A DNA stretch of 64,000 bases, from positions 58,702,749-58,766,748 of the forward strand of contig NC_088717.1 in assembly GCF_963576615.1 (NCBI RefSeq). Reading direction: 5' to 3'. How positions within the stretch are numbered: the stretch's first letter is position 1; each line of letters begins with the position of its first letter. Both the position numbers and the translations under genes were made by a program. Of this stretch, positions 6,121 through 47,755 are shown piece by piece. Source of the stretch: Watersipora subatra (taxonomy: Eukaryota > Bryozoa > Gymnolaemata > Cheilostomatida > Watersiporidae). Under the pieces are notes generated by a model that had not been told where the DNA came from, searched no databases, and saw nothing but the letters and a program-made list of their open reading frames with translations.

Positions 6121-8620
6121 GGTTTCGTATATTCAACAATGATATTTGGAGTCTTCACCTCAGGGGTAGCGTTTATGTTGTTGGCTCCGTCTCCCCTCCT
6201 CGACACCTTACTCGCTGATGCCGAGTGTGTAATAAGTCTCTTTACATATTTTGTGCATAAAGTCAGCAGGGTTGTGCTCTATTTACATGGAATACTGTTC
6301 AGGAATACTCCTGTTAAGCTAATTATTCTTACTACTTTAAAATGGCTTTCAGTATGTTTTATTGATTCACTTTTTAACTTATTGTGTCATTGAGAAAGTG
6401 ATGAGTATCTGAGTGAGCAATGACTACTACAAGTAGTGCTGCACGATAAAGCGATATAATTCCATGTGATGGTATATTTCAGTGGATGATTTTATATTGG
6501 GTCAGCTTTCAAATCAATATGAATATCAAAGCCGATATTTTATCGAAATATCGGCTCATTTTATTTTGCAAAACTGGAATTGTCCATTCTCCTTATTGTA
6601 TTGTACTCCTGTTTTTCAACCGATATTAAAGGTTGGCTTGCAACAAAATTCACATTATAGTTATTTGATATCAAAATATTCACCATGTCTTACTCTGTTG
6701 TGTTGTAGGTGCAAAATATGTGGGAATGTGACTACAAGCTCTTAAAAGCTCAAAAACGAACAGTTAATCGCAGCCACACCAGACCGCCGTAGTTTGGATT
6801 CTCTTTCCAAAACGGCTCAAATGTGACGTGGTTGTGTTAGATGGTTTCTGTTTACACTTTCATGCAACCTTATTCGTCGAAATATTTTCACAAATATACT
6901 TCACACATTCAATAAAACCATGTATATTGTTCTTACACGTCTGTTTTATCGTCATTGTAATGCTGTCACTTTTAGCAGTGATATCTTATAACTTACCGTA
7001 AAAATTCATTTAATTTTTTAACTTTACCTCGAAGGAGTACATATCATTGTCTGATAATCATGACGAGTCTGTTGGTCACTTGTGATAATCGAAAAGTGCT
7101 GCAGAAATTATTTGTGAAGTATTGTGTCACATGATCAAATTACGACTTGCCGATTAAACCAAACCGAAACCAAACTGTAAAGTAGCGAGCATCTATATTT
7201 GATACGGGGTCTTCAGTAAGGCCCGAAGTGTTTTTCATAAACTAGTGCTACGATAAGTTTTATATTGAGCTTTTTATTGGCCTTTCAATTCACATGAGAA
7301 CATCACGTGACAAGAAAATAACCAAACTGTAATGACTACGTCAGATAAATAGACAAATTCCAATCTACTGCGGCTTTTCGTTTTTGAGCTTTGAAGAGCT
7401 TGTAATCGCATTTCCACATATTCGGCACCTACAACACAACAGTGTAAGACATGGTGAATCTTTTGATACTAAATAACCGTAATGTGAATTTTGTTGCAAG
7501 TCAACCTTTAAACAATATCCTCTCATATTGTTCATGTTAAAGCCTAACACTATATATCAAAAGAGGACAATGTTCGATATTTTTCGATATTCGATATATT
7601 TAGTGACCAAATAATCAAATGTACATGCAAAGATATCGTGCATCACTAACTACAAGCAGGTACTTTTGGGTTATACATGTAAATTTATGTTGTAGAACAA
7701 GTGGGTTGGTTGTACTGGCCTGTGTCCTGGAAGGTTTTTTCACTGGAGCTATGTATATACCTAGTTACCTAGCAACCCTCAACCTTGCAGAGTAAGTTCT
7801 GTTATACGCGTAGATATTCCTTCATATCTTATCTGGTTGAGAGTTATCCTCCCTTAGAGAACACAACTCTCACAGAAAAGTTTTTGCTTTGTTGCAGAGT
7901 GAATGGGTACAAGCTGAATGAGCAGACGTATGGATTGGTATCAGGTATGATGAACTCCGGCAATTCTCTCGGCTCAATTGGTGGACCTTTGCTTTCTGGA
8001 TACTTAACAGATAAATATGGGTTCGCTTGGGCCACCACTATTATGGCCTTCACCTTATTGGCTATGGTAATACCTGCTATTATACACCTCTGCTTTCATT
8101 TAATTGAGCATATGAATTGATGCAGGTAACATAACTTTATGTATATTAATCTATGTTGGTAGCATAACTCTATGCATATGAATAGCTGGTAGCATAAATC
8201 TATGCACATGAATCTATGTTGGTAGCATAACTCTATGCATATGTTCTTATTAGATGGTCACTCTATGCACATAGTTTAGATTAATTGCTATATGATTCTT
8301 CATCATATCTTTTAAGTACATCATACCATGTGACCTGGTGACAGCTTGCTCACTATCAATAAATACATCTTCATATGTTGTTATTGTTATTATTTCTGCA
8401 TGTACTCGCGTATGCATAAAATTTGTTCTGTATGTCCCGGTTTCAATCATTTTGATTTAATTCATATAATAAATTAATAATCATTGTGATAATTCTGATT
8501 TCAATTATCTTACAGGGTGTAATCGAAATCATTTTTGTTGTCACGATGAGACTGACAGGAAGTCCTCTTGTTTTACCTAAAACATCTGAACTGGAGAAGA
8601 AGGAGCCTCTGCTCTCCTAA
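6121..8620 (+). CDS. Gene A: SLC18B1-like MFS transporter, 3' exons only (partial)
   Basis: Four exons join in phase: 6121-6224, 7696-7791, 7898-8066 and 8516-8620 (stop TAA). The first three have exactly the lengths (104, 96, 169 nt) and phases of exons 8-10 of gene B downstream, so the two genes are tandem paralogues; exon 10 peptides agree at about three residues in four. The product covers the last transmembrane helices of a major facilitator transporter resembling SLC18B1, the vesicular polyamine transporter (family knowledge). Visible motifs are TMIFGVFTSGVAFMLLAPSP, SGMMNSGNSLGS and GPLLSGYLTDKYGFAWA. The tail ends EKKEPLLS, reminiscent of but not matching the acidic dileucine sorting consensus. 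Upstream exons equivalent to gene B exons 1-7 were not found in 1-6120: they lie off the window or were lost. The first donor (GA|GTGTGT) is weak. A polyadenylation signal AATAAA lies at 9117-9122. Confidence 0.85.
6434..7648. mobile_element. hAT-like non-autonomous element with 8-bp TSD
   Basis: The termini form a short inverted repeat: left tagtgctgcacgata (6434), right tatcgtgcatcacta (ending 7648). Exact 8-bp direct repeats actacaag flank it at 6426-6433 and 7649-7656. Short TIRs of this kind plus an 8-bp duplication fit the hAT superfamily. It occupies the intron between the first two recognised exons of gene A, encodes nothing recognisable and carries the nested MITE 6630-7507. Confidence 0.85.
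6630..7507 (-). mobile_element. TTAA-flanked MITE, copy 2 (nested, inverted)
   Basis: An 878-bp relative of the element at 3772-4650, in the opposite orientation and similar from end to end. TTAA lies at 6626-6629 and 7508-7511. Termini are aggttggcttgcaacaaaat and the inverted equivalent. It is nested within the hAT-like element 6434-7648. Confidence 0.82.
8120..8245. repeat. Short tandem repeat in gene A intron
   Basis: Three to four imperfect copies of a ~33-bp unit built on gtagcataactctatgcatat, lying in the last intron of gene A. Confidence 0.6.
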
Positions 8621-13934: not shown

Positions 13935-14981
13935 CAGTGTAGTTGTCAGCGTATGCTGCCATTATTTGTAGTGAATAATACACACTTTATCAAACATGTC
14001 ATTCAACAACTTTCTGTGGAGTTTCATCTACCATAGTAGATTCCATTGAACCTTAAAGCAAGAAATAAAGGACTACTCTCTATAGGATGCTGGCGGACTA
14101 AATTCTTTTCAATCCTTCAGTTTATTATTTCATATTCATGCTGGTATAACTTCTATAATTGATTTTTATCACGGATTACAGCAGTAGTTGTACGAGAGAC
14201 AAGCTGAAAGCTCAGCTCAAGGTTTTCAAATGCTTACAGACTGTGTTACTTGCGATTTTCCCTTGAAATTCTAATTACTTCTCATTTTTAAGGTTTTTTT
14301 GAAAAAGTATATAAATATTGTCTATTAAATATTTCACAAATTTTACTGGCTAACTGATGTTATTTTTTGTTTTATATTATGATTCTTGTATAGCATAAAT
14401 TGGAAAACATTTCTGTTTGAAATGAAATTGTTACCAATGAAGCAGTATTTACAATGTATATAAACATCATTTTATGTTTGAATTTACATGTAAGTTAATT
14501 TGTGTATTATGCTATTGGCACTTCAAATGTTGAAGAAAAAATAGCTGTAAAATGCTTTCCACTATGATTGCTGAGTTGCCTGGCAACAATATATACAAAT
14601 AAAAAGCCTGTTTTTGAACTTTTTGATGGTGGGGTCGTCAATTCAGAATCAGTCCTACCTCATGTGAGTTTTTTTTAATTCTTCAACTTGTCCAAACTCT
14701 TTTTAGCAAAGGTTTTAGAAACATACTTTGGTGAAAAACTTGTAAATTTCCCAACCAACTTGTAATGAAACAGCTCAGCTAGAAAGAGCAGAGAAGCTAA
14801 GGAATCATGTGATCTATAGTCTTAGATACTTTCTTCCAGATGGACGCTAACAAGATAAGAAGAGATAAACCAACAATGGCTTTATCAAATATAATGACAA
14901 GTAACCTGATGATTTCTTAGTCCAGAAAGTCACGACTTTCCACACTAAGCTGGAGAATGCTGTAGAATATGTGAGACTGAG
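13935..14981. other. Gene B 5' flank / promoter region
   Basis: Non-coding, AT-rich sequence upstream of gene B. No defined TATA or initiator element that I can support. An in-frame stop (TAA, 14946-14948) precedes the chosen gene B start. Confidence 0.4.
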
Positions 14982-17900
14982 ATGGTTGATGAGCTTCCAA
15001 GACCAGATCTGAAGTTTGGCCAAGCTGCACTTATGGAGAATGAAAAGACAGAAGTTGAAGTTGTTAGTAGTGGTGGGCCATCGGCTCAAACGAGGACCAA
15101 ATCAACACGAGAAAAAGTACTGCAGATTAGCCTCCTGTTGCTAGCAATTTTTGTCATTGTCACGGCGTACTCTGTGATCGCTCCATTCTTTCCTCAGCAG
15201 GCCACGCGTGTCGGCATGACTGAGACAGAAGTCGGCTTAGTCTTTGCTCTATTTCCGACCATCGTTTTCATCATGAGTCCAATCTACGGATATTATGTAA
15301 GTATGCTCAATTTTTAATTACATAAATCTTTACTGTAAAGCCATTCATTTTAAATGTATTCTCTAGAGAGTTGAGGAGGAAAGCATGCTTACAATTAAGA
15401 TATGCTAAATTCTTGCCTTCAGCCTCTGTACACTGTCAACAAAAACCATTTTCACCCAGCTTTAACAGTTCAAAACTAGCTACGAACATCAAAACTTCAT
15501 CTATACAAGTACTTTGGTACTAGCTAACAAGTTAGTTCATAATATTTATTAGATTAGAATATAAACTATGTACATTGTCAAATAACACCTTCTGTAATTC
15601 TTGTGAACAGTTCAACAAATTTAACCATAATCATTATAGAATAATTATGTCTTTGTGTTTATTATGGCCTTTGTCAAAGGAGTGTTTCTCATTGTGAAAA
15701 CCTGGATCTTTTCATACCGAGGGTATATCATGAAAATACAATTCCTGGAGGTTTGTTGAAAGGTTGAATAATGATTTTGTTGTAACCTTAGCTTAAAAAT
15801 TAAACACAAGACATTTTATGCATTTAGCCAAAGCAGTACATTTTGTTAAAATAGCAAACAAAGACACTTAAAAGTTAAACACAAGTCATTTTATGCATTT
15901 AGCCAAAACAGTAAATTTTGGTAAAATAGCAAGCAAAGACACAGGTAAATTCACTAAAATATCATGAAGATATAATGAACTTAACCACATTTATTGTACA
16001 TGTATGAAGAATATTCAGTCTTTGTTATTCTTACTAGTTCTCTCCCTGCTGCTGCTACTAGTGTCGACAGCTATCTATGCTACAGTATCTATTTGTACTT
16101 GCTGTGAATACAACCACTAGTCAACAATGTCAAAAGGTTATGTAATACGCTCTTTCTGCCTGGGTAAGAGCACGCCAACGTCTGTGGATAATTAAGAAAA
16201 GTCTTGTTTTTATAAATTTTAATAACAGGTGCTACTGTCACCACTGCATCGGTACTATACTACATCTTCTGCTAATATTTGTGTATTACTACTACTACTA
16301 CTATATATGTAACATCAGTGCTGACTGGTTGACAGGGAAAAACTAAAAGCGGCTCTGCTAGTATCAATTCTTCAAAGCATTGACTTACGTTGAAATCAAA
16401 ATGCCCGTAGCTTCAGAAGTGAATGTGAAATTATTAACATTGTGAAAAAGAATCATGGAGCTTATATTTTTTCATAGACAATGCAATACCATTGTGTTGA
16501 CTGCAGATTGTCAAGATGGGTCCAAAGTTTCAAGTGGTGTCTGGATGCTTCTTGTGTGGAGGAAGTTGTATACTGTTTGGGTTAGTCTCTAGTAATTTGT
16601 AACTAACTCAAGTCATCATATGTAAGTTAGTTGTTCTTAATTTATTACTAACTCAAGTCATCATATGTAAGTTAGCCGTTCTTAATTTATTACAAACTCA
16701 AATCATCATATGTAAGTTAGCTGTTCTTAATTTATTATTAACTCAAGTCATCATATGTAAGTTAGTTATTCTTAATTTATTACTAACTCAAGTCATCATT
16801 TGTAAGTAAGCTGTTCGTAATAGGTCACTACCATTCTTACTTTGTTAATAACTCAAGTTATCATGTGTAAGTTAGCCGCTCCTAATTTGGGTTAGTCTCT
16901 ACTAATTTATTACTAATTCAAGTCATCCTATGTAAGTTAGCTGTTTTAAGTCATTATCCATTCATGTCACCTTGTTTTAGTTTAATTAGTTTGGTACTAA
17001 CTGAAGTTGACTGATTTCAGTAATCTTGTGAAACTAAACTTTGCAGTCTATCTATAAGATGCATACATTAAGTAAATTATAGTCAAACCTTTTAATAACT
17101 TACATCTAAACTGTCCAAACTGATTTGAAAATCATTTCAGCTAAAGATGCAAAAGTAGATTGTGTTTTCTTTGAAATGCTTCTTTTGCAGACTTTTAGGT
17201 CAAGTCAACAATAGAAATACTCTACTGGGAATGACTCTGTTGTGTCGCGCCGTGGAAGGTAATGGTTCAGCAATGCTTAACGTTGCAGCTGCATCGCTTG
17301 TCATGAAGTCTTTTCCTGGTAAAACCGGGCTGATGTCAGTAAGTATTTATATAGCTAGAGCAAGGTTAAGTCTTAACTCCATACGACCTCCACTCATACA
17401 ATCAAAGAATACCTAGCGCTGTCTCATCTGATTGATTGCGTTGTCTGTTTCCATAATTACAATTTTCTATCAATAGCTGATGAGTTTATTTATACATGCA
17501 AAACTTTGTCAAATTCACATGTCAGATACCTTCCCTGTTCATACATGTTATAGTTCACATGTCAGATACCTTCCCTGTTCATACACGTTATAATTCACAT
17601 GTCAGATACCTTCCCTGTTCATACACGTTATAATTCACATGTCAGATACCTTCCCTGTTCATACACGTTATAATTCATATGTCAGATACCTTCCCTGTTC
17701 ATACATGTTATAATTCACATGTCAGATACCTTCCCTGTTCATACACGTTATAATTCACATGTCAGATACCTTCCCTGTTCATACACGTTATAATTCACAT
17801 CTCAGATACCTTCCCTGTTCATACACGTTATATTTCACGTGTCAGATACCTTCCCTGTTCATACACGTTATAATTCACATGTCAGATACTTTCCCTGTTC

Positions 17901-20900: not shown

Positions 20901-23900
20901 TCTAGATGAGTTAGTTGTGCTATCTCTTGTTGTCATTGTAGAAATTTAATAAAAATATAATTGATTTAAAATTAGCTTAATGAATGTTTGAGTGTAGAGA
21001 TATCTGACCTTCACATGCTGACTTTCACTTGTCAGAAAGATTTACCAATTCCTTTTCATTTCAAATACAGTTTTGAATAATGCATGTTTAGTGCAACAGG
21101 ATAACACGACTCCATACCCTCATATACCTGATTACAGATATGTATATATATATATCTGTCTATAAGTGATATACAGATATACATGTGCGTATGGTTTAAT
21201 CTCACAATGTTGCAGCTCGGAGTTACCCCATCAATAGTTGGTTTAACCTTCTCTTCATGGTCCCTATCCTATGTGATTGTGACTCCATTAATTGGAAAAG
21301 TTGTAGACAAGGTAAGCCTAACCGGACTCTGTTTCATTTCAGCATTATTAGTAATCGTCATCTCCTGGACTACACTAACTTGCAGCCGCAACTTAGCAGA
21401 AGCTTTAAATACCACTTGAATGTTGCTTTGCTACATTTTGAACTCTATGAACTCTATGAACTCTATGAACTCTATGAACTCTATGAACTCTATGAACTCT
21501 ATGAACTCTATGAACTCTATGAACTCTATGAACTCTATGAACTCTATGAACTCTATGAACTCTATGAACTCTATGAACTCTATGAACTCTATGAACTCTA
21601 TGAACTCTATGAACTCTATGAACTCTATGAACTCTATGAACTCTATGAACTCTATGAACTCTATGAACTCTATGAACTCTATGAACTCTATGAACTCTAT
21701 GAACTCTATGAACTCTATGAACTCTATGAACTCTATGAACTCTATGAACTCTATGAACTCTATGAACTCTATGAACTCTATGAACTCTATGAACTCTATG
21801 AACTCTATGAACTCTATGAACTCTATGAACTCTATGAACTCTATGAACTCTATGAACTCTATGAACTCTATGAACTCTATGAACTCTATGAACTCTATGA
21901 ACTCTATGAACTCTATGAACTCTATGAACTCTATGAACTCTATGAACTCTATGAACTCTATGAACTCTATGAACTCTATGAACTCTATGAACTCTATGAA
22001 CTCTATGAACTCTATGAACTCTATGAACTCTATGAACTCTATGAACTCTATGAACTCTATGAACTCTATGAACTCTATGAACTCTATGAACTCTATGAAC
22101 TCTATGAACTCTATGAACTCTATGAACTCTATGAACTCTATGAACTCTATGAACTCTATGAACTCTATGAACTCTATGAACTCTATGAACTCTATGAACT
22201 CTATGAACTCTATGAACTCTATGAACTCTATGAACTCTATGAACTCTATGAACTCTATGAACTCTATGAACTCTATGAACTCTATGAACTCTATGAACTC
22301 TATGAACTCTATGAACTCTATGAACTCTATGAACTCTATGAACTCTATGAACTCTATGAACTCTATGAACTCTATGAACTCTATGAACTCTATGAACTCT
22401 ATGAACTCTATGAACTCTATGAACTCTATGAACTCTATGAACTCTATGAACTCTATGAACTCTATGAACTCTATGAACTCTATGAACTCTATGAACTCTA
22501 TGAACTCTATGAACTCTATGAACTCTATGAACTCTATGAACTCTATGAACTCTATGAACTCTATGAACTCTATGAACTCTATGAACTCTATGAACTCTAT
22601 GAACTCTATGAACTCTATGAACTCTATGAACTCTATGAACTCTATGAACTCTATGAACTCTATGAACTCTATGAACTCTATGAACTCTATGAACTCTATG
22701 AACTCTATGAACTCTATGAACTCTATGAACTCTATGAACTCTATGAACTCTATGAACTCTATGAACTCTATGAACTCTATGAACTCTATGAACTCTATGA
22801 ACTCTATGAACTCTATGAACTCTATGAACTCTATGAACTCTATGAACTCTATGAACTCTATGAACTCTATGAACTCTATGAACTCTATGAACTCTATGAA
22901 CTCTATGAACTCTATGAACTCTATGAACTCTATGAACTCTATGAACTCTATGAACTCTATGAACTCTATGAACTCTATGAACTCTATGAACTCTATGAAC
23001 TCTATGAACTCTATGAACTCTATGAACTCTATGAACTCTATGAACTCTATGAACTCTATGAACTCTATGAACTCTATGAACTCTATGAACTCTATGAACT
23101 CTATGAACTCTATGAACTCTATGAACTCTATGAACTCTATGAACTCTATGAACTCTATGAACTCTATGAACTCTATGAACTCTATGAACTCTATGAACTC
23201 TATGAACTCTATGAACTCTATGAACTCTATGAACTCTATGAACTCTATGAACTCTATGAACTCTATGAACTCTATGAACTCTATGAACTCTATGAACTCT
23301 ATGAACTCTATGAACTCTATGAACTCTATGAACTCTATGAACTCTATGAACTCTATGAACTCTATGAACTCTATGAACTCTATGAACTCTATGAACTCTA
23401 TGAACTCTATGAACTCTATGAACTCTATGAACTCTATGAACTCTATGAACTCTATGAACTCTATGAACTCTATGAACTCTATGAACTCTATGAACTCTAT
23501 GAACTCTATGAACTCTATGAACTCTATGAACTCTATGAACTCTATGAACTCTATGAACTCTATGAACTCTATGAACTCTATGAACTCTATGAACTCTATG
23601 AACTCTATGAACTCTATGAACTCTATGAACTCTATGAACTCTATGAACTCTATGAACTCTATGAACTCTATGAACTCTATGAACTCTATGAACTCTATGA
23701 ACTCTATGAACTCTATGAACTCTATGAACTCTATGAACTCTATGAACTCTATGAACTCTATGAACTCTATGAACTCTATGAACTCTATGAACTCTATGAA
23801 CTCTATGAACTCTATGAACTCTATGAACTCTATGAACTCTATGAACTCTATGAACTCTATGAACTCTATGAACTCTATGAACTCTATGAACTCTATGAAC

Positions 23901-26900
23901 TCTATGAACTCTATGAACTCTATGAACTCTATGAACTCTATGAACTCTATGAACTCTATGAACTCTATGCCTGTCACATTCATAAATCTTGTTTGTTCAT
24001 TTATTGCTAATTTGTTATTTCTTTGTTAATTTGTTTTAATGTAGTTTGAACAAATCCAATAATAGATTTATAGCATAATTGTTTTATAGCATACACAGAA
24101 TGTGTTTGCTATAAAACAATCATTCTTTTATCGTAGGCTAAGAGCCTAAAATATTTATAAAGCTCTCGAGTCATGGCTTTTGGACTATCACGCGTTTCAT
24201 TGGAAACACCAAATACTATATTTATCTTTAAAATATGAGAATTAGACAATTTGATTTTCAATTCATACCTTTGCTTGTATGGAACCCAAAAGGATCCCGA
24301 GTCGTCTGCTAGCCGATTGTATATATGTTATGTATATATAACATGTAAAGTTATACATGTACATATTATGTTATGTTATATGTTATATTATGTCATGTTA
24401 TATATAACATGTTATATATAACATGTTATGTATAACATGTTATGTATACACACATCTAACATAGTTGAATGCCCGGCGTTGCACAAGTAATAAAAAGTCT
24501 TTGCACAGAGAATTACCATTTATCTACCATCTAACTTTTAAATGAAGGTGTTTGTTTATTTCTATGCATGCTCACCTGTCTGGAGATCTGGAGGTTCTGA
24601 GTTCATATCTAGTGTGAAGCAGATTTTTGTTCTTAAAACTGTATTGCTAGAGCTGGATGAATGATGAATGACCAACAAACAAACACTGAAACACGTATAT
24701 ATAAATTAAACATATATCTAATGCAATGAGAAATGTAATTGAATTCATGTGAAATAAATTACAAGAGGATAGAAAAAAGAGTAAAATAAGACAATAGCCT
24801 CAGTACCCATGTTTATATTGATTTTTGCTTTATGTTTTATATGAGCAAACACATAAAGAAAAAGTTTAGAACTGTTTCTTGTATGTGTTAGCTTACGGTC
24901 AGATATACCGTATGTAAATAAGAAGACAACTCAGAAATAGATTTTAAAAAAGAACTCATAGCTCTAAGAAATACTTGTTTATAAGTTACATTAATCCAGT
25001 TTTGTCTCATAAAAATTTCAACTTGAGGAATGTCTTTTTGCTTGGTTTTTATTTTATGTTCTGTAAAAGTTGCAGAGAACCAGAAGAATGCAGCATTTTA
25101 ATTAAATCTAGCTCATCATAGTGAAAAAATCACTATGATGAGCAGATAAACTAGTCCATAGATGAGTTTCAAAACTTTGATCTGAATAAAGTCATTATTC
25201 TCCCTGTTTTTCTAGCCAGTTTTATATATGTATTTTGAAAAACTCAAGTTTGATAAGATAAGCTTTTTTAGCCTGGTGGCCGGTAAAAATAGGAAATTTA
25301 TGAAAGGCTTGGAGTCATTCCTAATAAAAATAGTTTGTATTTTTTGTAATCAAAGTAGACAGAAATAGAATTTGCAAGATGATTTGTGAAAACCGACTCC
25401 TGCTTTTCGCTTGTCAGAGCATATCACTCTCTTTTAGGGTTACGTGTTTTCAACAATGATAATTGGAGTGTTCTCATCTGGAATAGCTTTCATGTTCCTT
25501 GCGCCATCTCCGTTGCTCGACTCCATATTTCCTGGAACAACGTGAGTTTGCAGAAACATTACTTCAAGATTTTCTAGCTGAGCTGGTGAGTCAAGCTTTG
25601 GTTGCAATCATTCATATATCTCATATAGAAAACAATAGACAACGATAAACCGGAAAATCATAAATAAGTTGTTGCAAATAAAAATAATTATTCGGTTAGT
25701 TTATATTTTCTGTAATTACTCTTCATCTCTATACTTTTCGGCGATATACAAAGAGTTGCTGAACAGTTTTTCAAAAACGCAAGCTTCTCACTAACCGTTT
25801 ATTTGAAATAGAAATAATTTACGCTATTGTAATTCCAATGCTATGAATCAATCTCTCAAGTGAACAATATAAAATATATAATTGGAACACACACCAATAA
25901 ACTATAGAACTGCTTTTCATACAAAGAAAAGGCAGCTTTAAGTTTAAATATTTGGCATTGGAAAGTTGAATTTTTATCTCTACGATTGCTGTATATACAT
26001 TTGTAGAAGCTTGTGGATTGTGGTGGTCGTCTGTCTAATACAGGGCATCTGCAACGGGGCTCTCTACGTCCCAGGATACCAGGCTACGCTCAACACCGCT
26101 GAGTATGTTCTAAAATGCCTAATGAGTCATTTACTTCTCGTTGATGAAATTTCATTTAATGAGAATTTAATTGATGGATATTTTGTTGAATTTCTTAAAA
26201 AGTATTATATTTTATTATATTATATTTTAGAGTAAACGGATATGAGCTTAATGTGCAAACGTATGCTTTGACATCAGGCATTATGAACTCAGGCTATTCT
26301 CTTGGTTCAGCAGTAGGACCCCTGCTCTCAGGCTATCTCACTGAAACCTACTCATTTGCTTGGGCAACAACTATAATGACCTTCACTCTGGTATCAATGG
26401 TATGTTTCTAGCAGTGGGTGACACGCTTTATAACTCTAGATGGCTATGTTAGAAAACAGTAGATGGTATGTTATCTTGTAATAAATTGTATGTTCTCAAA
26501 CAGTAAATGATATGTAATCTAACAATAGAAGATTATGCTATAAAGCAGTACATGGTACATTATACCGAGACAGATAGTGAGTTATCTAAATGACATGTTT
26601 TATAGCAGTATCTTGCAGTACGCGGTACCCTATCAACCAAAGATTGTTTTACTATTTAGTGGATTATAGTATGTTGTCTAAGAGTATCTTCTGCTTTTTG
26701 CAAGTATAACAAGATTACTAGAGGTTTGGTCTTAATTAAGTACCTGACCGACCATATCCAATAGCATTGAATAAGGACTAATATTTCATTGTGAAGACAC
26801 CTAATAATCCGTCAAAAGTCAGTGAACAACTATTTCTTAATTAATTTGGTATTAGATTTATAGCCAAAACAATGTCTTCTTTAAGAAAATATTTTTTAAC

Positions 26901-29900
26901 GCGGCGTGTAATATTGTTATACTAGGGGTGTAATACTTCTTCAATAAGAGATGTAATATTGTTATACCAAGGAGTGTAATACTTCCCCAATAAGAGATGC
27001 AATATTGTTGTACCACTGGGTATAATACTTCCTCAATAAGAGATGTAATATTGTTATACTAGGGGGTATAATACTTCCTCAATAAGAGATGCAATATTGT
27101 TATACCAAGGAGTGCAATATTTCCTTAATAAGAGATGTAATATTCTTATAGTAAGGGATGCAATACTTCTTCAATAAGAGATGTAATATTGTTATACCAA
27201 GGAGTGCAATATTTCCTCAATAAGAGATGCAATATTGTTATACTAGGGGTGTAATACTTCCTCAATAAGAGATGTAATATTGTTATACCAAGGGGTGTAA
27301 TACTTCCTCAATAAGAGATGTACTATTGTTATACCAAGGGGTGTAATACTTCCTCAATAAGAGATGTACTATTGTTTTCCCAGAGGGTGTAATACTTCTT
27401 CAATAAGAGATGCAATATTGTTATAGTAAGGGATGTAATACTTCTTCAATAAGAGATGTAATATTGTTATACTAGGGGTGCAATATTTCCTTAATAAGAG
27501 ATGTAATATTGTTATAGTAAGGGATGCAATACTTCTTCAATAAGAGATGTAATATTGTTATACTAGGGGTGCAATATTTCCTTAATAAGAGATGTAATAT
27601 TGTTATAGTAAGGGATGCAATACTTCTTCAATAAGAGATGTAATATTGTTATAGTAAGGGATGCAATACTTCTTCAATAAGAGATGTAATATTGTTATAC
27701 CAAGGAGTGCAATACTTCTTCAATAAGAGATGTAATATTGTAATACCACGGGGTGTAATACTTCCTCAATAAGAGATGTAATATTGTTATACTAGGGGGT
27801 ATAATACTTCCTCAATAAGAGATGCAATATTGTTATACCAAGGAGTGCAATATTTCCTTAATAAGAGATGTAATATTCTTATAGTAAGGGATGCAATACT
27901 TCTTCAATAAGAGATGTAATATTGTTATAGTAAGGGATGCAATACTTCTTCAATAAGAGATGTAATATTGTTATAGTAAGGGATGCAATACTTCTTCAAT
28001 AAGAGATGTAATATTGTTATAGTAAGGGATGCAATACTTCTTCAATAAGAGATGTAATATTGTTATACCAAGGAGTGCAATACTTCCTCAATAAGAGATG
28101 TAATATTGTTATACTAGGGGGTATAATACTTCCTCAATAAGAGATGCAATATTGTTATACCAAGGAGTGCAATATTTCCTTAATAAGAGATGTAATATTG
28201 TTATAGTAAGGGATGCAATACTTCTTCAATAAGAGATGTAATATTGTTATAGTAAGGGATGCAATACTTCTTCAATAAGAGATGTAATATTGTTATACCA
28301 AGGAGTGCAATACTTCCTCAATAAGAGATGTAATATTGTTATACTAGGGGGTATAATACTTCCTCAATAAGAGATGCAATATTGTTATACCAAGGAGTGC
28401 AATATTTCCTTAATAAGAGATGTAATATTGTTATAGTAAGGGATGCAATACTTCTTCAATAAGAGATGTAATATTGTTATAGTAAGGGATGCAATACTTC
28501 CTCAATAAGAGATGTAATATTGTTATACTAGGGGGTATAATACTTCCTCAATAAGAGATGCAATATTGTTATACCAAGGAGTGCAATATTTCCTTAATAA
28601 GAGATGTAATATTGTTATAGTAAGGGATGCAATACTTCTTCAATAAGAGATGTAATATTGTTATAGTAAGGGATGCAATACTTCTTCAATAAGAGATGTA
28701 ATATTGTTATACCAAGGAGTGCAATACTTCTTCAATAAGAGATGTAATATTGTAATACCACGGGGTGTAATACTTCCTCAATAAGAGATGTAATATTGTT
28801 ATACCAAGGGGTGTAATACTTCCTCAATAAGAGATGTAATATTGTAATACCACGGGGTGTAATACTTCCTCAATAAGAGATGTACTATTGTTATACCAAG
28901 GGGTGTAATACTTCCTCAATAAGAGATGTAATATTGTTATACTAGGGGGTATAATACTTCCTCAATAAGAGATGCAATATTGTTATACCAAGGGGTGTAA
29001 TATTTCCTTAATAAGAGATGTAATATTCTTATAGTAAGGGATGCAATACTTCTTCAATAAGAGATGTAATATTGTTATAGTAAGGGATGCAATACTTCTT
29101 CAATAAGAGATGTAATATTGTTATACCAAGGAGTGCAATACTTCTTCAATAAGAGATGTAATATTGTAATACCACGGGGTGTAATACTTCCTCAATAAGA
29201 GATGTAATATTGTTATACCAAGGGGTGTAATACTTCCTCAATAAGAGATGTAATATTGTTATACCAAGGGGTGTAATACTTCCTCAATAAGAGATGTACT
29301 ATTGTTTTCCCAGAGGGTGTAATACTTCTTCAATAAGAGATGCAATATTGTTATAGTAAGGGATGTGATACTTCTTCAATAAGAGATGTAATATTGTTAT
29401 ACCAAGGAGTGCAATACTTCTTCAATAAGAGATGTAATATTGTTATACCAAGGGGTGTAATACTTCCTCAATAAGATATGTAATATTGTTATACCAAGGG
29501 GTGTAATACTTCCTCAATAAGAGATGTAATATTGTTATACTAGGGGGTGCAATATTTCCTTAATAAGAGATGTAATATTGTTATAGTAAGGGATGCAATA
29601 CTTCTTCAATAAGAGATGTAATATTGTTATACCAAGGAGTGCAATACTTCTTCAATAAGAGATGTAATATTGTTATACCAAGGGGTGTAATACTTCCTCA
29701 ATAAGAGATGTAATATTGTTTTCCCAGAGGGTGTAATACTTCCTCAATAAGAGATGTAATATTGTTATAGTAAGGGATGCAATACTTCTTCAATAAGAGA
29801 TGTAATATTGTTATACCAAGGAGTGCAATACTTCTTCAATAAGAGATGTAATATTGTTATACCAAGGGGTGTAATACTTCCTCAATAAGATATGTAATAT

Positions 29901-32900
29901 TGTTATACCAAGGGGTGTAATACTTCCTCAATAAGAGATGTACTATTGTTTTCCCAGAGGGTGTAATACTTCTTCAATAAGAGATGCAATATTGTTATAG
30001 TAAGGGATGTAATACTTCTTCAATAAGAGATGTAATATTGTTATACTAGGGGTGCAATATTTCCTTAATAAGAGATGTAATATTGTTATACCAAGGGGTG
30101 TAATACTTCCTCAATAAGAGATGTAATATTGTTATACCAAGGGGTGTAATACTTCCTCAATAAGAGATGTACTATTGTTTTCCCAGAGGGTGTAATACTT
30201 CCTCAATAAGAGATGTAATATTGTTATAGTAAGGGATGCAATACTTCTTCAATAAGAGATGTAATATTGTTATACCAAGGAGTGCAATACTTCTTCAATA
30301 AGAGATGTAATATTGTTATACCAAGGGGTGTAATACTTCCTCAATAAGATATGTAATATTGTTATACCAAGGGGTGTAATACTTCCTCAATAAGAGATGC
30401 AATATTGTTATAGTAAGGGATGTGATACTTCTTCAATAAGAGATGTAATATTCTTATACCAAGGAGTGCAATACTTCTTCAATAAGAGATGTAATATTGT
30501 TATACTAGGGGTGCAATACTTCCTTAATAAGAGATGTACTATTGTTTTACCAGAGGGTGTAATACTTCTTCAATAAGAAATGTAATATTGTTATACCAAG
30601 GAGTGCAATACTTCCTCAATAAGATATGTAATATTGTTATACCAAGGGGTGTAATACTTCCTCAATAAGAGATGTACTATTGTTTTCCCAGAGGGTGTAA
30701 TACTTCTTCAATAAGAGATGCAATATTGTTATAGTAAGGGATGTAATACTTCTTCAATAAGAGATGTAATATTGTTATACCAAGGAGTGCAATACTTCTT
30801 CAATAAGAGATGTAATATTGTTATACCACGGGGTGTAATACTTCCTCAATAAGAGATGTAATATTGTTATACCAAGGGGTGTAATACTTCCTCAATAAGA
30901 GATGTACTATTGTTTTCCCAGAGGGTGTAATACTTCCTCAATAAGAGATGTAATATTGTTATAGTAAGGGATGCAATACTTCTTCAATAAGAGATGTAAT
31001 ATTGTTATACCAAGGAGTGCAATACTTCTTCAATAAGAGATGTAATATTGTTATACCAAGGGGTGTAATACTTCCTCAATAAGATATGTAATATTGTTAT
31101 ACCAAGGGGTGTAATACTTCCTCAATAAGAGATGCAATATTGTTATAGTAAGGGATGTGATACTTCTTCAATAAGAGATGTAATATTCTTATACCAAGGA
31201 GTGCAATACTTCTTCAATAAGAGATGTAATATTGTTATACTAGGGGTGCAATACTTCCTTAATAAGAGATGTACTATTGTTTTACCAGAGGGTGTAATAC
31301 TTCTTCAATAAGAAATGTAATATTGTTATACCAAGGAGTGCAATACGTCCTCAATAAGAGATGTACTATTGTTTTACCAGAGGGTGTAATACTTCTTCAA
31401 TAAGAAATGTAATATTGTTATAGTAAGGGATGTAATACTTCTTCAATAAGAGATGTAATATTGTTATACCAAGGAGTGCAATACGTCCTCAATAAGAGAT
31501 GTACTATTGTTTTCCCAGAGGGTGTAATACTTCTTCAATAAGAAATGTAATATTGTTATAGTAAGGGATGTAATACTTCTTCAATAAGAGATGTAATATT
31601 GTTATACCAAGGAGTGCAATACGTCCTCAATAAGAGATGTACTATTGTTTTACCAGAGGGTGTAATACTTCTTCAATAAGAAATGTAATATTGTTATAGT
31701 AAGGGATGTAATACTTCTTCAATAAGAGATGTAATATTGTTATACCAAGGAGTGTAATACGTCCTTAATAAGAGATGTACTATTGTTTTACCAGAGGGTG
31801 TAATACTTCTTCAATAAGAGATGCAATATTGTTATACTAGGGGTATAATACTTCCTCAATAAGAGATGTAATATTGTTATACCAAGGGGTGTAATACTTC
31901 CTTAATAAGAGATGTACTATTGTTTTCCCAGAGGGTGTAATACTTCTTCAATAAGAAATGTAATATTGTTATAGTAAGGGATGTAATACTTCTTCAATAA
32001 GAGATGTAATATTGTTATACCAAGGAGTGCAATACGTCCTCAATAAGAGATGTACTATTGTTTTACCAGAGGGTGTAATACTTCTTCAATAAGAAATGTA
32101 ATATTGTTATAGTAAGGGATGTAATACTTCTTCAATAAGAGATGTAATATTGTTATACCAAGGAGTGCAATACGTCCTCAATAAGAGATGTACTATTGTT
32201 TTACCAGAGGGTGTAATACTTCTTCAATAAGAAATGTAATATTGTTATAGTAAGGGATGTAATACTTCTTCAATAAGAGATGTAATATTGTTATACCAAG
32301 GAGTGCAATACTTCTTCAATAAGAGATGTACTATTGTTTTACCAGAGGGTGTAATACGTCCTTAGTAAGAGATGTAATATTGTTATACTAGGGGGTGTCA
32401 TACTTCCTTAATAAGAGATGTAATATTGTTATAGTAAGGGATGCAATACTTCCTTAGTAAGAGATGTAACATTGTTATACCAAGGAGTGCAATACTTCCT
32501 CAATAAGATATGTAATATTGTAATACCAAGGAGTGTAATACGTCCTTAATAAGAGATGTACTATTGTTTTCCCAGAGGGTGTAATACTTCTTCAATAAGA
32601 GATGCAATATTGTTATACTAGGGGGTGTCATACTTCCTTAATAAGAGATGTAATATTGTTATACTAGGGGGTGTCATACTTCCTTAATAAGAGATGTAAT
32701 ATTGTAATACCAAGGAGTGCAATACTTCTTCAATAAGAGATGTAATATTGTTATAACAATCGGCATAAAAGCATCTCAAGAATGATTTAAGTCTCTTTCA
32801 GAGGTTGAGCAGACCTTTTTATTCAGAAATAAATGTAATAATTTTTATGAGTAAATACCAACAGCAAGTTAGAGGAGTTGGTTGTAGATCAATCCAATAT

Positions 32901-37900: not shown

Positions 37901-40900
37901 AAGCTAAGCCACAGAAGATAGCCAAAGACAGATCTCTGCTGACAGCATGTAAAAACAGCGAGTCCTCTCAAAGATTATTTGAAGAAGTTATACACAACAT
38001 CTGAGACAATATCTCTAATCATCAAGTAGTCATCTACATACAAGTTAAAAGTTTTAGCTGTGAATCTATTACTGTGGTCTGTTAAATCATTAGATGACAA
38101 TATCTGCTTCCATCACCTATTTTCACAAACTCTTCTTAGTAAATCCAGTAGACAAGACTGTTGGCAAACCCCAATTCCATTCTATCTGTAATACCTTAGT
38201 ACATATGAATAGAAGAGGAAGGATATTTCATGTATATAAAGAGTGAAGGGTGAGGAATAACCTACATCTAACCAACTCAGCTATCCTATTATCTAAGTCT
38301 GATCGGAAAACCACCTAAATAATCACCGAACCTGCTGAATCCAAACAGTCACACCTGCGCTTGGTCAAACCCGCACAGGTTCCATGTAAGCAGTAGCCTT
38401 TTTTCTTTTGTTGTCTTACATCTGGAGGTACTGACCAAATCTCTCCTACTTTCTCACTATTGTTCAAGCTGCAAGACAGTAGCTCACACCTGCGATAAAG
38501 TTGGTACAAGACAGTAGCTCACACCTGCGATAAAGTTGAAACAAGACAGTAACTCACACCTGCGATAAAGTTGGTACAAGACAGTAGCTCACACCTGCGA
38601 TAAAGTTGGTACAAGACAGTAACTCACACCTGTGATAAAGTTGATACAAAACAGTAACTCACACTTGTGATAAGGTTGATACAAGATAGTAACTCACACT
38701 TGTGATAAAGTTGATACAAGACAGTAACTCACACTTGTAATGAAGTTGAAACAAGACAGTAACTCACACTTGTGATAAAGTTGAAACAAGACAGTAACTT
38801 ACACTTGTGATAAAGCTGATACAAGACAGTAACTCACACCTGTGATAAATTTGATACAAGACAGTAACTCACACCTACGATAAAGCTGATACAAGACAGT
38901 AACTCACACTTGTGATAAAGTTGATACAAGACAGTAACTCACACCTTTGATAAAGTTGATACAAGCTTAAACTTTGTACTGTAGTTATATACATCACAAA
39001 CAATAGAAACAGACACATTTGATCTTGTTTTTTCTTTGTACCTTTTACCGAAGTGAGGAATTTTACATTTGCAGTAATAGTCTTCTAAAGAGTTGGCATT
39101 GTTAGGGTTTTTAAAGGAAATACATTTTCCATCATTCAAGCATGGCTCCATGATGCAGGCTTCATCAGGTACACAGAACCGCATTCTAATCTCATCAGTA
39201 AGAGTCAGGTTGGCATGACAAATGGCTGTTCTAAATAACAAAGTTTGCTGGATGTATATAACACATGAAAACACGTCATCTCATAGAAAAGAAACTATTT
39301 GGCAGTTTATGAGAGTATGATTATGTCATGTATAGGAGCTCGTGTGGCAACTAATGACAGTTGGATTGAGGCATAGTAAGGAGACGATGTCATAACAGAG
39401 TACACACTTGCTAGATGTTTGCCATGAGTTGTTGCTGTAAATGCCTGTGATGACATGGAAGTGAGTGCTACAGTCAAATTTGATGAGATCAAATGGGTAA
39501 ACTGTCATCCGCTCTATATGATCTTCTGTAACAAACAAGTATTTAGTGTAGATAGAACTAGGCTAGAAAGTCTATAAAGTTTGCATAAAGTACAATACGA
39601 GGTTGAGCAGACAATATTTCATACAATTAATTTCGTTCATTTCGATAGATATGATGAGGTATTGAAATATTTATTCGCTCACATGTATCATATATTTATT
39701 CGCTCATATGTATCATATATTTATTCGTTCATATGTATCATATATTTATTCGCTCATATGTATCATATATTTATTCGCTCATATGTATTCAAACTTTTCA
39801 AACTTTGAGCAATCATTATGATTTTTATGTTGTGCTTACTAAAGAGAGTTTTACGTTTATGAGTTGTGTTATAACTGAACTCTCACCAAAAAGGGTTCCT
39901 CGGGGATGAGTTGTATTATATTTGAACAGGCTATAGACTGCAACCTTCTTCTGCGGAAACAGGAAGTCACTTATCTTTATATCTCTCAGATAGTATACAG
40001 TGGCAGCTGGCTTTAAACCTTTTGTGGTGCCCAGATATCTGTTATACTGCAATAGGTGTCAAATAGTTAGCTCGGAGCAATGTCACTCACGACTCACTAA
40101 GGAGATCATCAAGCTGTGCTACACACGAAATTGTAGAGGATGTGTATTCTCTTTATGCTTACCCAGAATGGAGAATAAAGTTGTTTTTTTGGACAGCCGA
40201 CTGATTCGTTCAAAGTCTTTATACAGAAGACCTGAACGCTTGAGCCCTATAATGACATAGAGTAAAATGAAAGCACACTAAAATATATAAGGAAACCTGC
40301 AGCACCAGCTAATCCCAAGTCAGCACCAGCTAATCCCAAGTCAGCACCAGCTAATCCCAAGTCAGCGCCAGCTAATCTCAAGTCAGCACTGATTTAAAGT
40401 CAGCTTTGGCCAAATGAAAGGACATGGTTCAATTTCTTTTCATTACATATTTCTCAGACAATCTTGAAAATCTGATTTTTGTTTTGAAATGTGTTCGCTT
40501 GTATTTAAAAATGTTTTTGGTCATGTTACTCTCTCCTTCCCATCAATTTCACCTCATTTTTGCACACTTCTTATTGCCATGCAAAACTATTTTAGCCCCT
40601 TTTGTTGTAAATGTTTTACAAAGATATTATAAGTATAGCATTCTGTTTAATGACATAAATGATAAACTAGTAATTTAGCTCTACTAGGCATTTCAATTGA
40701 TCATCACAAATGTCTTCTTTTGCACGACTCAACCCAACCCAACTCAGGCTCAACCCAACCCAACCCATTGCCTACACTCTGCAGAACAATCTATTTACAT
40801 GTTTAATTCTTTAGCGTGATGCATGCAGTTCTGGTGCTATCGTGAGTAAGTTATGTTGATTAACTTTTTCCAACATAATGCTCTTTGATTGTGAAATAGA

Positions 40901-43792
40901 AAACAAAGCAAACCCTTTTGCGTGCAAGCGTGTTTCAGCGCGTGCCAGCGTGTACAAGCGTGTGCAAGGGTGTGCCAGCGTGTGCAAGCGTACTCGCACA
41001 AGCTAACATGCCTGACCCACCCTTTTGCTCACACTCAAGGAAATAGAAACCAGCGCAGTCACAAAACTACATAAGGTTGAACTCACGTTACTTATATCAG
41101 CCGGACCTACAAAAAAGGAGAAAAACTACAAGTGTATGTATTTGTCAAACTCCTTACTTGTCATGCATATGATGTTGTGACTGCAGAACATTATGGCCGG
41201 GGCCGGCCGGATTGAGTGTAGGACTGAACCCATCACGCTGTAGCCGAGCCTCCATACCAGGAAAGGAGACTCGCCTGCCGGTGTTTCCAGATAGGACAAA
41301 TAGAGATGGAAGGAAGCAATAAGCAGGAAGTGGCGCCAATTGCACGGGCATGTAAATAGAAGGTGCAAGTGGAGCTAGCGCAATCCCTCTGCACTATTTT
41401 TATTGCTGTGTGTACATTACATTCATGTACTTTTATATATAGTCATAAGATAATATATATATTCTGGAGATTAAACACTCAGTGTTTATTTGCTTTGCTT
41501 GTCTTGTGGAAAGCAAAAGGACGGGCCGAGTCTTTTACAATTAAATGATTAAAAAATGGCTGTTATACGTAGATGAGCAGTATGATGACAAAATTTTTAC
41601 AATTTCTCAAAATTTATTTTCTGACAATTATGATAATTTTTTAGAAATTCAAACTTTTAATTTGCTCCGAGTACAAAGCTGAACTTGCAATAGAAAACAA
41701 AATTAATTGAAATCAATGCCTACACTGTAAAAATTTACAGTGGAATATACAAAGCTGTGTAGTTGCGTAAGCCAATGGAATATCAAGAAACATACCTTGG
41801 TCTGAAGGGAAAGCATTAATTGAGGGTTTGTAAGTGGGGTCAGTAGCCTTAGCTATGTTTATCAGCAGAAATCCTCTAAGGTCCTTAATCACATCAACGC
41901 AGCTCTGGTTGCAGTTTTGTTTATTCTTCTCCAGGCTACTATAACAGAAACAGTTTCTTGCATCAGTTCTTCAGAGCCTCTTGAATGAAAATTGAGAGCT
42001 TCATAAAAATGTTCCAAGTTTTGGAGTCATTTCTTATATTAAAGAAATCTATTGTTTCTTTCCTTAATAAACGAAAGCCATAAAAAGCATAGACAGGCGT
42101 GAACTACGTGTATTTAAGAGATTTAGACAAAATATTAGTTTTCAAAGGTTGCTACCACATGTCAAAGGGGGTTGCAACGTAACTAACATGTAACATGTAA
42201 CGAGGGTTGCAACAGACAGTTTAGGAAACCTGAAAAACTAGAAGGAGTGTTTATGTGTTGCAGTTAAAACAAGTGGCTAGCAAATGAGTGTTTGAGTGAT
42301 ACCACCATAATTTTTCATTGAGCAGATAAATGCAGGAAATACAATTTTGATGTTAGTATACGCTAGTAATGAGATGAACAATCGCTGAGACCAGAGCCGG
42401 ATGCCAAAGAGGAGCCAACACCTAAGCGACCGATGAAAGGAGCTGAGCTCGATGCTGAGCCCCCTTGAATTGACAGATGACACAGCCACCAGTAATACTT
42501 CCGGTCGGCTGACGGTAGACTCCCGAGTTGATCATGCTACTGATGGGCGAAACCAAGCAGAGATGAAAGATATAAAAGAAGCCACAGAAGCAAGCAAGAT
42601 CAGAGCATCAGAAAGTTTTCTGCTATGCGGTTGATTGTATGAGAATTGTTACCTTTATTCTTAAAAATTTGAAAAATACATATTTGTTGCCTCGCACTCA
42701 AGCCGTTTGTTTCCTTTTGGAGCAAATCGAAAAACTCGGTTGGTTCCTTTACAGTATCAGAACTGAGTTTTTCTGTTTCTGATACATTTGACATGTTATG
42801 AAAGTAGAGAAGTATTGCAACTGATGAGAGTACTTATAGAAGTGAAGAAGTATTGTAACTGATGATAGTGCTTATAAAAATACTATTAACTGACAGCAGG
42901 ATTTACTTACTCTCCTTCTATGTACCGATTACCCATTTGAAAGGCACTAGCCGCCTGAATCCACTGATAGTACCATTCACCGTTGTTTGATACCACTACA
43001 TGCAGGTTCAGTGGTATGTAAAACTTTTTAGCTTTAGCTTTTTTCAATCCTTTAAGCAGCTCATCACCGGCTTCTAGCGTATTTGGTATGAATGATGCTA
43101 CAGGAAATCAAACAAGTTATATTTGTGTTGCACGGTGGAGCTAGAGCAATGTATGTTATTTCAATTTATATTGCACCGACCTAGTGAAGGGCGAGGGCAG
43201 ACAGCAGATCGAACTACTCAACTACATACTAAACTGCCAGTAAAAAAATAATTTAATGACAACAATAAACAATTAAATTGTCAAATCAAACTAAATAAGT
43301 TCATATTTAGATAAAGACATATGAAGCTTTTATATAAATCAATAAGATCCTTATTATTACAGTACTATTACTAGTATTAATTTTGAGCTTACTCAATTAC
43401 TTACTCATTAGTATTATTTACAAACTAAGTACCCGCACTCACCTACAATATCTTGATGAAAATATTCTGGCAACCTAGCCTCAGCTTCGCCATCGCGTAC
43501 AGGCAGATTCCCACAATATGCTCTAGCTCCTTTCCAACTTATTAAAGGAGACACGTGGTAGCAAACAGAAACTCTCTCATCATTGAATGTGCCTGAGGGC
43601 AATATGTTGCTTTAATGAACTTAAAGGACTACAGAAGTCGCTCGACCTATAAGACTTAATAAAGAGTAAAGGACAAAACTAATCCATTGATCAAATAACC
43701 CTAAGATTTGAGTAAGAGCTCATCAGGACTGACTATTAATGCATTCAGACATGTTCCTTGCCAGTTTCATTAAATTGAACACGTATATATTA

Positions 43793-43874
<82 letters not shown>

Positions 43875-44064
43875 TAGATGCAGTATGAACAGTCTCTTGC
43901 ATGAAAGTGCTCAATATTAAAATAGAGCGATGTAAAATTGGGTAAAAATGAAAGTTAAAGTTAAGTTTAAAACAACTTCCACCAGTAATACTTCCGGTCG
44001 GCTGACGGTAGACTTATTAGTAATAAAGTTGTTTTAAACTTAACTTTAACTTTCATTTTTACCC

Positions 44065-44096
<32 letters not shown>

Positions 44097-44598
44097 TATA
44101 TATTAGTGGACTACATCTGGCTATTCTTGTCCATGCACGGTTAGACACCAAGAGATGTATCAGCTTCCTTGTTAGTTAGCTACAACTGAGCATTACTGTA
44201 ACTTGGTGGAAAACCGTTATGAGTGGCTTGCAACAAATACGGTGCAAACAAAGCGCTTCCCTGAAATGAGGACATACTTGCAAGAGTTATCTACTCTCGC
44301 TACAATATTTTGGGTAGTGAAGGCAACTCTTACTATATGTTTAAAACCTTAGAGTTGAAGGCTTCATGGTGAGAACAGCAGCTCTGTGAGTCAAGGCAGC
44401 TGCAGCCATTCCTTCTGTTAACACAAGATTACAGGGCTTGAGCAATGATTCTCACCTGATAACCCATAAGGTGACATAGCCTGCAACATGAGAGAATGAA
44501 GCTCTATTGTAGGAACTTACCCACCGGGACCCACCCACCAGTACTTCTCACTTCTTCACAATCTAAGGAGTAGGAAGAAAAGAAATCCTGCTCGGCTT
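34935..44598 (-). CDS. Gene C: C-type-lectin-like/EGF single-pass membrane protein (5' end not found)
   Basis: Fourteen minus-strand exons join in phase, in transcript order: 44521-44598, 43443-43592, 42911-43097, 41796-41938, 41158-41274, 41087-41106, 39887-40046, 39408-39525, 39042-39230, 38332-38468, 37469-37564, 37224-37323, 36129-36298, 34935-35095 (stop TAG); about 600 residues. The N-terminal part resembles a C-type lectin fold (VCYHVSPLISWKGARAYCGN, ARLPEYFH, later FCSHNIICM) but lacks a clear calcium-binding EPN/QPD triplet. EGF repeats follow: DDCKRTECQNEGVCVD, CVCKDGFFGSDC, CHGEPCKNEGEC and CYCIGTWFGETC. Then comes one hydrophobic helix (SLAAACGLVLFFTMCC) and a ~60-residue cytoplasmic tail ending DAADPAD. 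Likely a type I surface adhesion or recognition receptor (inferred). The first exon with a signal peptide was not identified. The exon 9/10 junction is ambiguous: 39042|38468 or 39049|38422 both keep phase. Confidence 0.82.
35263..35504. repeat. 9-bp tandem repeat (tattgtatg/tattgtaca)
   Basis: About 26 copies of a 9-bp unit with two main variants, in the last intron of gene C. The peptide repeats in its open frames (MYC/TYC) are by-products. Confidence 0.9.
38470..38955. repeat. 35-bp minisatellite abutting the exon 10 acceptor of gene C
   Basis: About 14 imperfect copies of a 35-bp unit containing acaagacagtaactcacacc and tgtgataaagttgat. The first unit overlaps the minus-strand acceptor of exon 38332-38468 (tactgtcttgcag). 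On the coding strand every unit reads tttatc.cag|gtgtgag, an acceptor-like AG placed directly against a donor-like GT. Confidence 0.88.
39659..39790. repeat. ~26-bp tandem repeat
   Basis: Five copies of a unit with atatttattcgctcatatgt, in an intron of gene C. Confidence 0.85.
40299..40400. repeat. ~22-bp tandem repeat
   Basis: Four to five copies of a unit with agcaccagctaatcccaagt. Confidence 0.85.
40918..40995. repeat. 10-bp imperfect repeat (caagcgtgtg type)
   Basis: Seven or so degenerate units alternating gccagcgtgt and gcaagcgtgt. Confidence 0.7.
41087..41106 (-). other. 20-nt microexon of gene C
   Basis: Flanked by a pyrimidine-rich acceptor (ccttttttgtag) and a strong donor (GTGAGT). 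It supplies exactly the phase needed between exon 41158-41274 (ends phase 1) and exon 39887-40046 (starts phase 0), encoding S-P-A-D-I-S-N across the joint. Without it the neighbours are out of frame. Confidence 0.7.
42486..42521. repeat. 36-bp sequence exactly duplicated at 43979-44014
   Basis: It begins ccaccagtaatacttccggt and ends gacggtagact. It sits in a GC-richer stretch (42390-42610) of a gene C intron that may be an old retroelement piece. The second copy is in the hairpin loop 1.5 kb away, same orientation. Confidence 0.9.
43798..43871. repeat. (AT)n microsatellite
   Basis: Uninterrupted at/ta dinucleotides of about 74 bp in a gene C intron. Confidence 0.95.
43933..44071. repeat. 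Perfect 46-bp-arm inverted repeat with captured loop
   Basis: Arms 43933-43978 and 44026-44071 are exact reverse complements (left arm starts taaaattgggtaaaaatgaa). The 47-nt loop starts at its first base with the exact 36-bp copy of 42486-42521. An (AT)n run follows the right arm (44070-44095). Confidence 0.92.
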
Positions 44599-46509: not shown

Positions 46510-47755
46510 ATAGAGTTTTTCTCCTGAAGTTATGCTTCTAGGTTCCTTAAAAAACCAGTGGAGCAGTGTCCTGTTATCAGATGAGTTCTCCACTGGTGTT
46601 GCCGATCATTCTTTAGTTGTTTCTGTATGGTGAACTTTTTAAAATGACTTGCTAACATATCTGTTATAGTTGTGTTTCTACCATTTAGGTTTACAGTGTG
46701 AGAATGTATCTTTTTTAAGTTTGCCTTTGTAAATAACAATTTTTTTGCGAAATAGCTCTGTCCTATTGCCATTCTACAGTATGTGTATATGTCTCTGGAG
46801 AGTAAAGACTCAGCTGTAGGTATGTTTGTGATATAGTAGGGTGCTTCTGTTGAGAGATTAGTCTTTGCTCTTAGTATGTCTTTCAAACAGCTATGGAAAG
46901 ATGTTAGCTTTTTGATCCCATATAAAACTACGTGTATTTTAAAAGCTGTTGGCAGTATGGTTGGTTCTGGTATATTTTTAGAATAGTATGGCTTTAACCC
47001 TGCATTGATGAAAAGGAGAAGTAGTCTCTATTTCTTAGCCAATATTGCTATTGCTTCTTCTCTTTGTTTGTTGAATGTTAACTTAGAGTCTAGGGTTAAA
47101 CCTAAAACTCTAGTAGAATAGGTAATATTTATGTTTTCTCCGCTGACTTAAAGTTGTTTTGGGTTACAGTTGAACCAAGTTGTATTTGACTTGGAACAGT
47201 TTGCTTTCATGTGCCATTGTTTCAGCCAGTGTGTGAACTTCATGCAGTTACTTTCCATTGTTTCCTATAGTAGGTCTTCATTTGGTCTTGAGCAGATAAC
47301 TGAACAATCGTCTGCATATTGGAGCGTAGTTCCATTCATGACCTCAGCATGTCTCTGGTGTAGAGTACAAAAAGTATAGGGGATAGGATGCTTCATTGTG
47401 GCAGTCCTATTTCACATTGTTTTGGCTGTGATAGACGATTGTTAACTTTAATTCTGATTGTTCGTCATGTGAGAAAATCAAATATTAATTGAAGGAAGGT
47501 CCATTTATTCCTAATTCGGCGAGTCTGAGCAACATCCTTTGGCACCATACACTGTCAAATGCTTTTTGCAGGTCGATATAGAGGCCTGCGACCTTTAGTT
47601 TAGGTGATTGTGTTGAATTACTATCATCATAAGTAGAGGTAAGTAGGTAAGCAGAGGTAGATCTGTTTTTACGGAATTCATGTTGGTATTCTGGTATTAG
47701 CCTTCTGACTCTGTTGGAATTCTAAGTCTGTGCTCAATTATTCTCTCTAGAATTT
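46510..47755 (-). pseudogene. Broken LINE reverse transcriptase
   Basis: Read on the minus strand from 47755 downward, several frames give ordered landmarks of an APE-type LINE reverse transcriptase: LIPEYQHEFRKNRSTSA (47640-47720), YIDLQKAFDSVW (47540-47590), YADDCSVICSRPNEDLL (catalytic YADD, ~47270-47330), WLKQWHMKANCSKSNT (47180-47240), then a C-terminal region open at 46530-46886. Stops and frameshifts separate these pieces, so it is inactive. The clade (CR1, Jockey or related) cannot be settled by eye. It separates genes C and D, which diverge from this region. Confidence 0.78.

Follow-up and report, generated by a model that had tools for sequence, protein, structure and literature searches.

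Palindromes are unstable, and the studies of their fate considered here mostly concern yeast, bacteria and human disease loci. In the centre-break revision of Cunningham et al. (2003), asymmetry near the centre of a palindrome is said to stabilise it. Mobile elements can be palindromic as well: MITEs of this form with a TA target duplication, of the Tc1/mariner type, include for example the PAL families of Repbase. A further class of events is templated insertion, or filler DNA, at double-strand breaks, to which the Pol theta literature belongs.

Palindromes become unstable once they exceed 50 bp, according to PMC7680136. Filler DNA was found at 58 of 94 rice excisions, with lengths of 1–123 bp and a mean of 13 bp, according to PMC4423477. 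Yeast also shows fillers at breaks, and a large share of the events described earlier reportedly lacked microhomology (PMC11724301).

Here we describe a locus of which each part is a known kind of event; its value lies in the completeness with which the steps remain readable. Because the receiver, the insert and the probable donor are all still recognisable, the order and the direction of events can be read from one sequence.

Results

Structure of an interrupted palindrome

The locus lies in a 64-kb stretch of DNA, analysed as a whole and called the window below. Its features are:

43933..43978, plus strand: left arm of 46 bp, counting the terminal TA; exact reverse complement of 44026-44071
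43979..44014, plus strand: 36-bp insert, putative templated filler; identical to 42486-42521, with a GC content of 0.56 against 0.20 in the arms
44015..44025, plus strand: probable remainder of the palindrome centre, TATTA-G-TAATA; self-pairing, extends the arms to 51 bp around G
44026..44071, plus strand: right arm of 46 bp, counting the terminal TA; exact reverse complement of the left arm
42486..42521, plus strand: probable donor of the 36-mer, an exact copy; another genomic copy may have served as donor
44072..44095, plus strand: (TA)n tract bordering the right arm and a possible TA target, judged from the sequence, the TRF row at 44070-44103 and the empty-site reading
43798..43871, plus strand: longer (TA)37 tract to the left of the palindrome, from a TRF row

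Consistent with the initial annotation, the arms were computed to be exact reverse complements (46/46), and the loop between them (47 nt, 43979-44025) opens at the boundary of the left arm with an exact copy (36/36) of 42486-42521 in the same orientation. The two copies of this 36-mer are separated by 1493 bp from start to start. With up to three mismatches allowed, the 36-mer occurs at two places only in the window, a number reached in none of 100 shuffles. Seven perfect inverted repeats were counted in the window (arms of at least 14 bp, spacer of at most 150 bp, low-complexity arms excluded), and the second-longest arm measures 17 bp compared with 46 bp here; in 20 mononucleotide shuffles of the window, the longest arms were 10–14 bp. 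As a single DNA strand, 43920-44085 is predicted to fold at -49.4 kcal/mol, against a mean of -12.0 kcal/mol for 200 shuffles (z = -13.0). The structure at 43933-44071 is real and non-random, far beyond chance.

A 103-bp palindrome beneath the probable insert

The last 11 bases of the loop (44015-44025, TATTAGTAATA), which the initial annotation had missed, are themselves palindromic and read TATTA-G-TAATA. Without the 36-mer, 43933-44071 is a palindrome of 103 bp in which 51 of 51 pairs form around a single central G. Once the two large satellites and three stretches of (TA)n had been masked, 5+1+5 symmetry was detected in 102 of the 55,314 11-mers of the window (0.18%, 44015-44025 included), and the estimate from composition is 0.13%. 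In view of this symmetry and its rarity, the 11 bases very probably once formed the centre of a palindrome whose arms were 51 bp long.

When the 36-mer is skipped, TAATA and the right arm form the mirror image of the left arm and TATTA, which indicates that the inverted copy was templated by sequence lacking the 36-mer; the palindrome would thus be older than the insert, or copied from an insert-free strand. In the most likely reading, the palindrome already existed when the 36-mer was inserted 5 bp from its centre. The change is confined to the palindrome centre, with the insertion 5 bp from it and the 46 outer pairs perfect. An insertion at this position displaces the five innermost pairs, so that the insert touches one arm and the 11-nt remainder lies on the other side. 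The exact abutment of arm and copy had been taken to point to a special capture event; such an abutment results whenever an insertion falls no more than 5 bp from the centre. We therefore hold, with moderate confidence, that the palindrome came first and the templated 36-bp insert second. Taken together, the order and direction of events are strongly suggested.

Possible origins of the palindrome

At each end the perfect pairing stops with TA; one base further out stand G on the left and, at the start of (TA)n, T on the right, which are not complementary. Imperfect complementarity continues beyond the perfect arms (65-nt arms at 88%), and the predicted fold runs three pairs further, one of them G-T; because of this outward complementarity, which is expected beside (TA)n, the TA boundary is less sharp than it would be in unique sequence. 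The palindrome possesses terminal inverted repeats. A TA target duplication would leave TA at both ends, as seen; this dinucleotide, however, equals its own reverse complement, and (TA)n follows on the right. Under a TA-type insertion, the empty site would read ...GCGATG-TA-TATATA.... We put the odds that the palindrome is a TA-inserted palindromic MITE at about even; the TA ends are the one feature from which this reading derives, and beside (TA)n they argue for it weakly.

An in-place fold-back template switch is nearly as likely as a MITE insertion. Here the palindrome would not be a transposon: replication would have switched template, by fold-back or between strands, copied 51 bp of local sequence backwards around the G and rejoined at (TA)n, and the 36-mer would have come later, so that this explanation differs from the best one in the first step only and has the second in common with it. 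A single template switch is reported to suffice for a perfect hairpin (PMC8794818). The right arm rejoins at TA, possibly through microhomology with (TA)n, and a second copy of the palindrome is absent from the 64-kb window. However, the perfect arms stop at TA on both sides, as a TA-type insertion would, and the arm GC of 0.20 is well under the local 0.35–0.36. As a complete account of the locus, we regard the template switch as a serious contender that falls somewhat short of an even chance.

Neither part of the arm nor part of the 36-mer had an exact match in viral contigs or genome contigs, collections that are viral and prokaryotic and have little bearing on an animal genome. A blastn search against phages matched 36 records, but none of them covered 80% of the element in one place; among the 20 of 36 rows listed, the top coverage was 28% and E-values were at least 0.4. 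Rfam at gathering scores and a search for tRNAs gave no matches.

Probable donor and copying direction of the insert, and its junctions

The GC content of the insert is 0.56, compared with 0.20 for the palindrome and its arms, and the donor area is similarly GC-rich: the 60-bp segment from 42480 has 0.53, and 60-bp segments starting at 42360-42520 have 0.43–0.55. This contrast between insert, arms and donor neighbourhood suggests that copying ran from 42486 to the palindrome, the insert fitting the surroundings of the donor and being foreign to the palindrome. Features of a templated filler are the 36/36 identity, the presence of both donor and copy, and the restoration of 51/51 pairing when the insert is removed. 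Filler insertions often, though not invariably, show microhomology at their junctions; here it amounts to 0 bp on the left and about 1 bp, a shared T, on the right. Transposition of a tiny element, one of the mechanisms offered in the initial annotation, is possible for the palindrome with its TA at both ends, but less plausible for the 36-mer: inspected by eye, its ends show no inverted repeats and, apart from the one shared T, no target duplication.

The heptamer AGTAATA is common to the insert (43984-43990) and the palindrome centre (44019-44025) and lies at no junction. With satellites and (TA)n masked, at least 7 nt were shared with the 11-nt centre by 176 of 5000 random and 13 of 1601 GC-matched 36-mers of the window; for the 21-nt centre, the counts were 432 of 5000 and 31 of 1601, respectively. 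AGTAATA may have helped to select the donor. A microhomology-guided donor choice through this motif is suggestive at best, the position being unfit for simple priming, and was not used. Among the frames listed (at least 55 codons, complexity filter passed), at least three stop-to-stop frames, of 61, 65 and 84 codons, overlap the donor stretch. The 65-codon frame, the only one of the three submitted, matched no Pfam family, and a coding role for the donor stretch was dropped on this ground.

The initial annotation had proposed that one templated event made the hairpin and captured the 36-mer. Its templated copy is upheld by the exact 36 bp with a GC content of 0.56 inside a palindrome of 0.20; the single event is not favoured, as the loop residue completes the palindrome. 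In such a multi-switch replication event, the inverted copy and the captured 36-mer would arise together, which would be in keeping with templated insertions that can be complex and microhomology-mediated (PMC11724301) and with the perfection of arms and insert, all of which may be young. Yet the inverted copy passes through TATTA into the arm without the 36-mer, and the insert would have to sit on the nascent strand while the parental strand templated the inversion. We consider this course of events unlikely.

Slightly less probable still is a mobile Pack-type MITE that brought the 36-mer here after an earlier capture from 42486 or another copy. TA ends, perfect inverted repeats and foreign internal sequence would all suit such an element, but the only known donor is 1.5 kb away, which favours capture in place, and the window contains no further copy of either part. 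A sequencing or assembly artefact is very improbable: long hairpins and (TA)n pose difficulties for sequencing, and the analysis covered the assembled sequence, but this is unbroken on both sides, and a chimera would hardly place an error-free 36-bp copy of sequence 1.5 kb distant within a symmetrical palindrome.

Genomic surroundings

The window has the character of animal DNA, and a Pfam search covering 10 of its frames provided the following features:

14949-15314, plus strand: MFS_1-like exon (Pfam, score below the cut-off)
38942-39280, minus strand: EGF exon (Pfam)
47488-47721, minus strand: reverse transcriptase fragment (Pfam, score below the cut-off)

Two minus-strand frames between the copies of the 36-mer, 42910-43107 and 43417-43611, appear exon-like by eye and matched no Pfam family; the placement of both copies in one gene, given in the initial annotation, is thus putative. 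The 13-mer GTATATATTAGTG occurs at 43783-43795 and 44096-44108 and flanks the whole (TA)n-palindrome-(TA)n block; the pair is possibly a 13-bp target duplication of a 300-bp insertion and possibly due to chance, being AT-rich and adjoining (TA)n.

Other repeats are found elsewhere in the window. Two related elements of about 887 bp (3768-4654 and 6626-7511) lie in opposite orientation and share 90.5% identity. They are bounded by TTAA and have terminal inverted repeats, about 135 bp long and matching each other at about 90%, and they resemble non-autonomous DNA transposons of the TTAA type. A second inverted pair (2675-3151 and 5438-5917) is related at 88% identity over 447 aligned columns, and a 29-bp exact piece adjoins it. 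A remarkably perfect tandem array with a 9-bp unit (TGAACTCTA) occupies 21439-23969 in about 281 copies with 100% matches and has long open frames in three of the six frames, and a 46-bp satellite fills 26907-32759 in about 127 copies with 87% matches.

Discussion

Based on these data, we propose a plausible course of events in which the palindrome precedes its insert. First, a 103-bp near-perfect palindrome would arise, most likely through a palindromic MITE-like insertion at a TA beside (TA)n; its symmetry is directly observed. By analogy with known systems, the hairpin tip at the palindrome centre might then break or stall the polymerase. Repair would subsequently fill in a 36-bp copy of sequence 1.5 kb distant, its orientation kept, at a point 5 bp from the centre; the copy is present in the sequence, and the repair and the enzymes performing it are suggested by comparison. 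This step would be followed by rejoining with about 1 bp of microhomology. Finally, the spacer would grow from 1 to 47 nt, and the hairpin, judged from work in yeast, would move out of reach of the tip nuclease and probably gain stability. No function is needed for the insert beyond stabilisation of the palindrome.

The Mre11 complex of yeast, acting with Sae2, targets inverted Alu repeats when the hairpin loop is shorter than 9 nt; breaks were 80% fewer at a 9-bp spacer, and no fork pausing was detected at 9 or 10 bp (PMC8053094). By analogy, the old palindrome, with 1 nt between its arms, would have been open to Mre11/Sae2 attack, and the present one, with 47 nt, would not. A spacer that now lies beyond the tip nuclease would explain the survival of perfect arms. 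Several points count against the proposed explanation. The window contains no other copy of the palindrome, and no empty allele was observed. The yeast data concern Alu repeats, not 51-bp arms. In Escherichia coli, an 85-bp interrupted palindrome was no target of SbcCD cleavage during replication (PMC3315005), so that cutting may also be infrequent at a length of about 100 bp. In addition, junction microhomology is low (at most 1 bp).

A more specific version of events, that a mobile palindromic mini-transposon gained a 36-bp host fragment at its tip and was stabilised thereby, is a doubtful one in our estimate. If it were true, tip repair would be a general route for palindromic MITEs to gain internal sequence and survive, and this could be the smallest example of a Pack-type element found alongside its donor. 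Should the element be a repeat family, its copies would test tip repair as a source of asymmetric centres in palindromic MITEs. The locus seems to preserve a small but clear example, from nature, of the way in which an unstable palindrome may be calmed by the cell. Among the titles and abstract openings listed, our literature search found no natural palindrome patched by a templated insertion with a known donor, a weak result in that subscription papers lay mostly outside the search.

The likeness to centre-break revision (Cunningham et al. 2003) reportedly lies in the asymmetry introduced near the palindrome centre; the change here is instead a 36-bp templated copy with an identifiable donor, at a natural locus. 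With palindromic MITEs of the TA type (Tc1/mariner), the locus shares a near-complete palindrome, TA at both ends and the lack of coding capacity, whereas such elements form families of multiple copies and the 64-kb window contains a single copy of the present one. Perfect arms from one copying event would be shared with hairpins born of template switching; the cases published in PMC8794818 are stems of RNA genes, whereas the present structure is read from one present-day sequence. As in filler DNA at double-strand breaks (PMC11724301 and PMC4423477), a short nearby copy, little microhomology and a retained donor are seen here; the presumed break, however, would be a hairpin tip and not the nuclease cut or transposon excision of those accounts.
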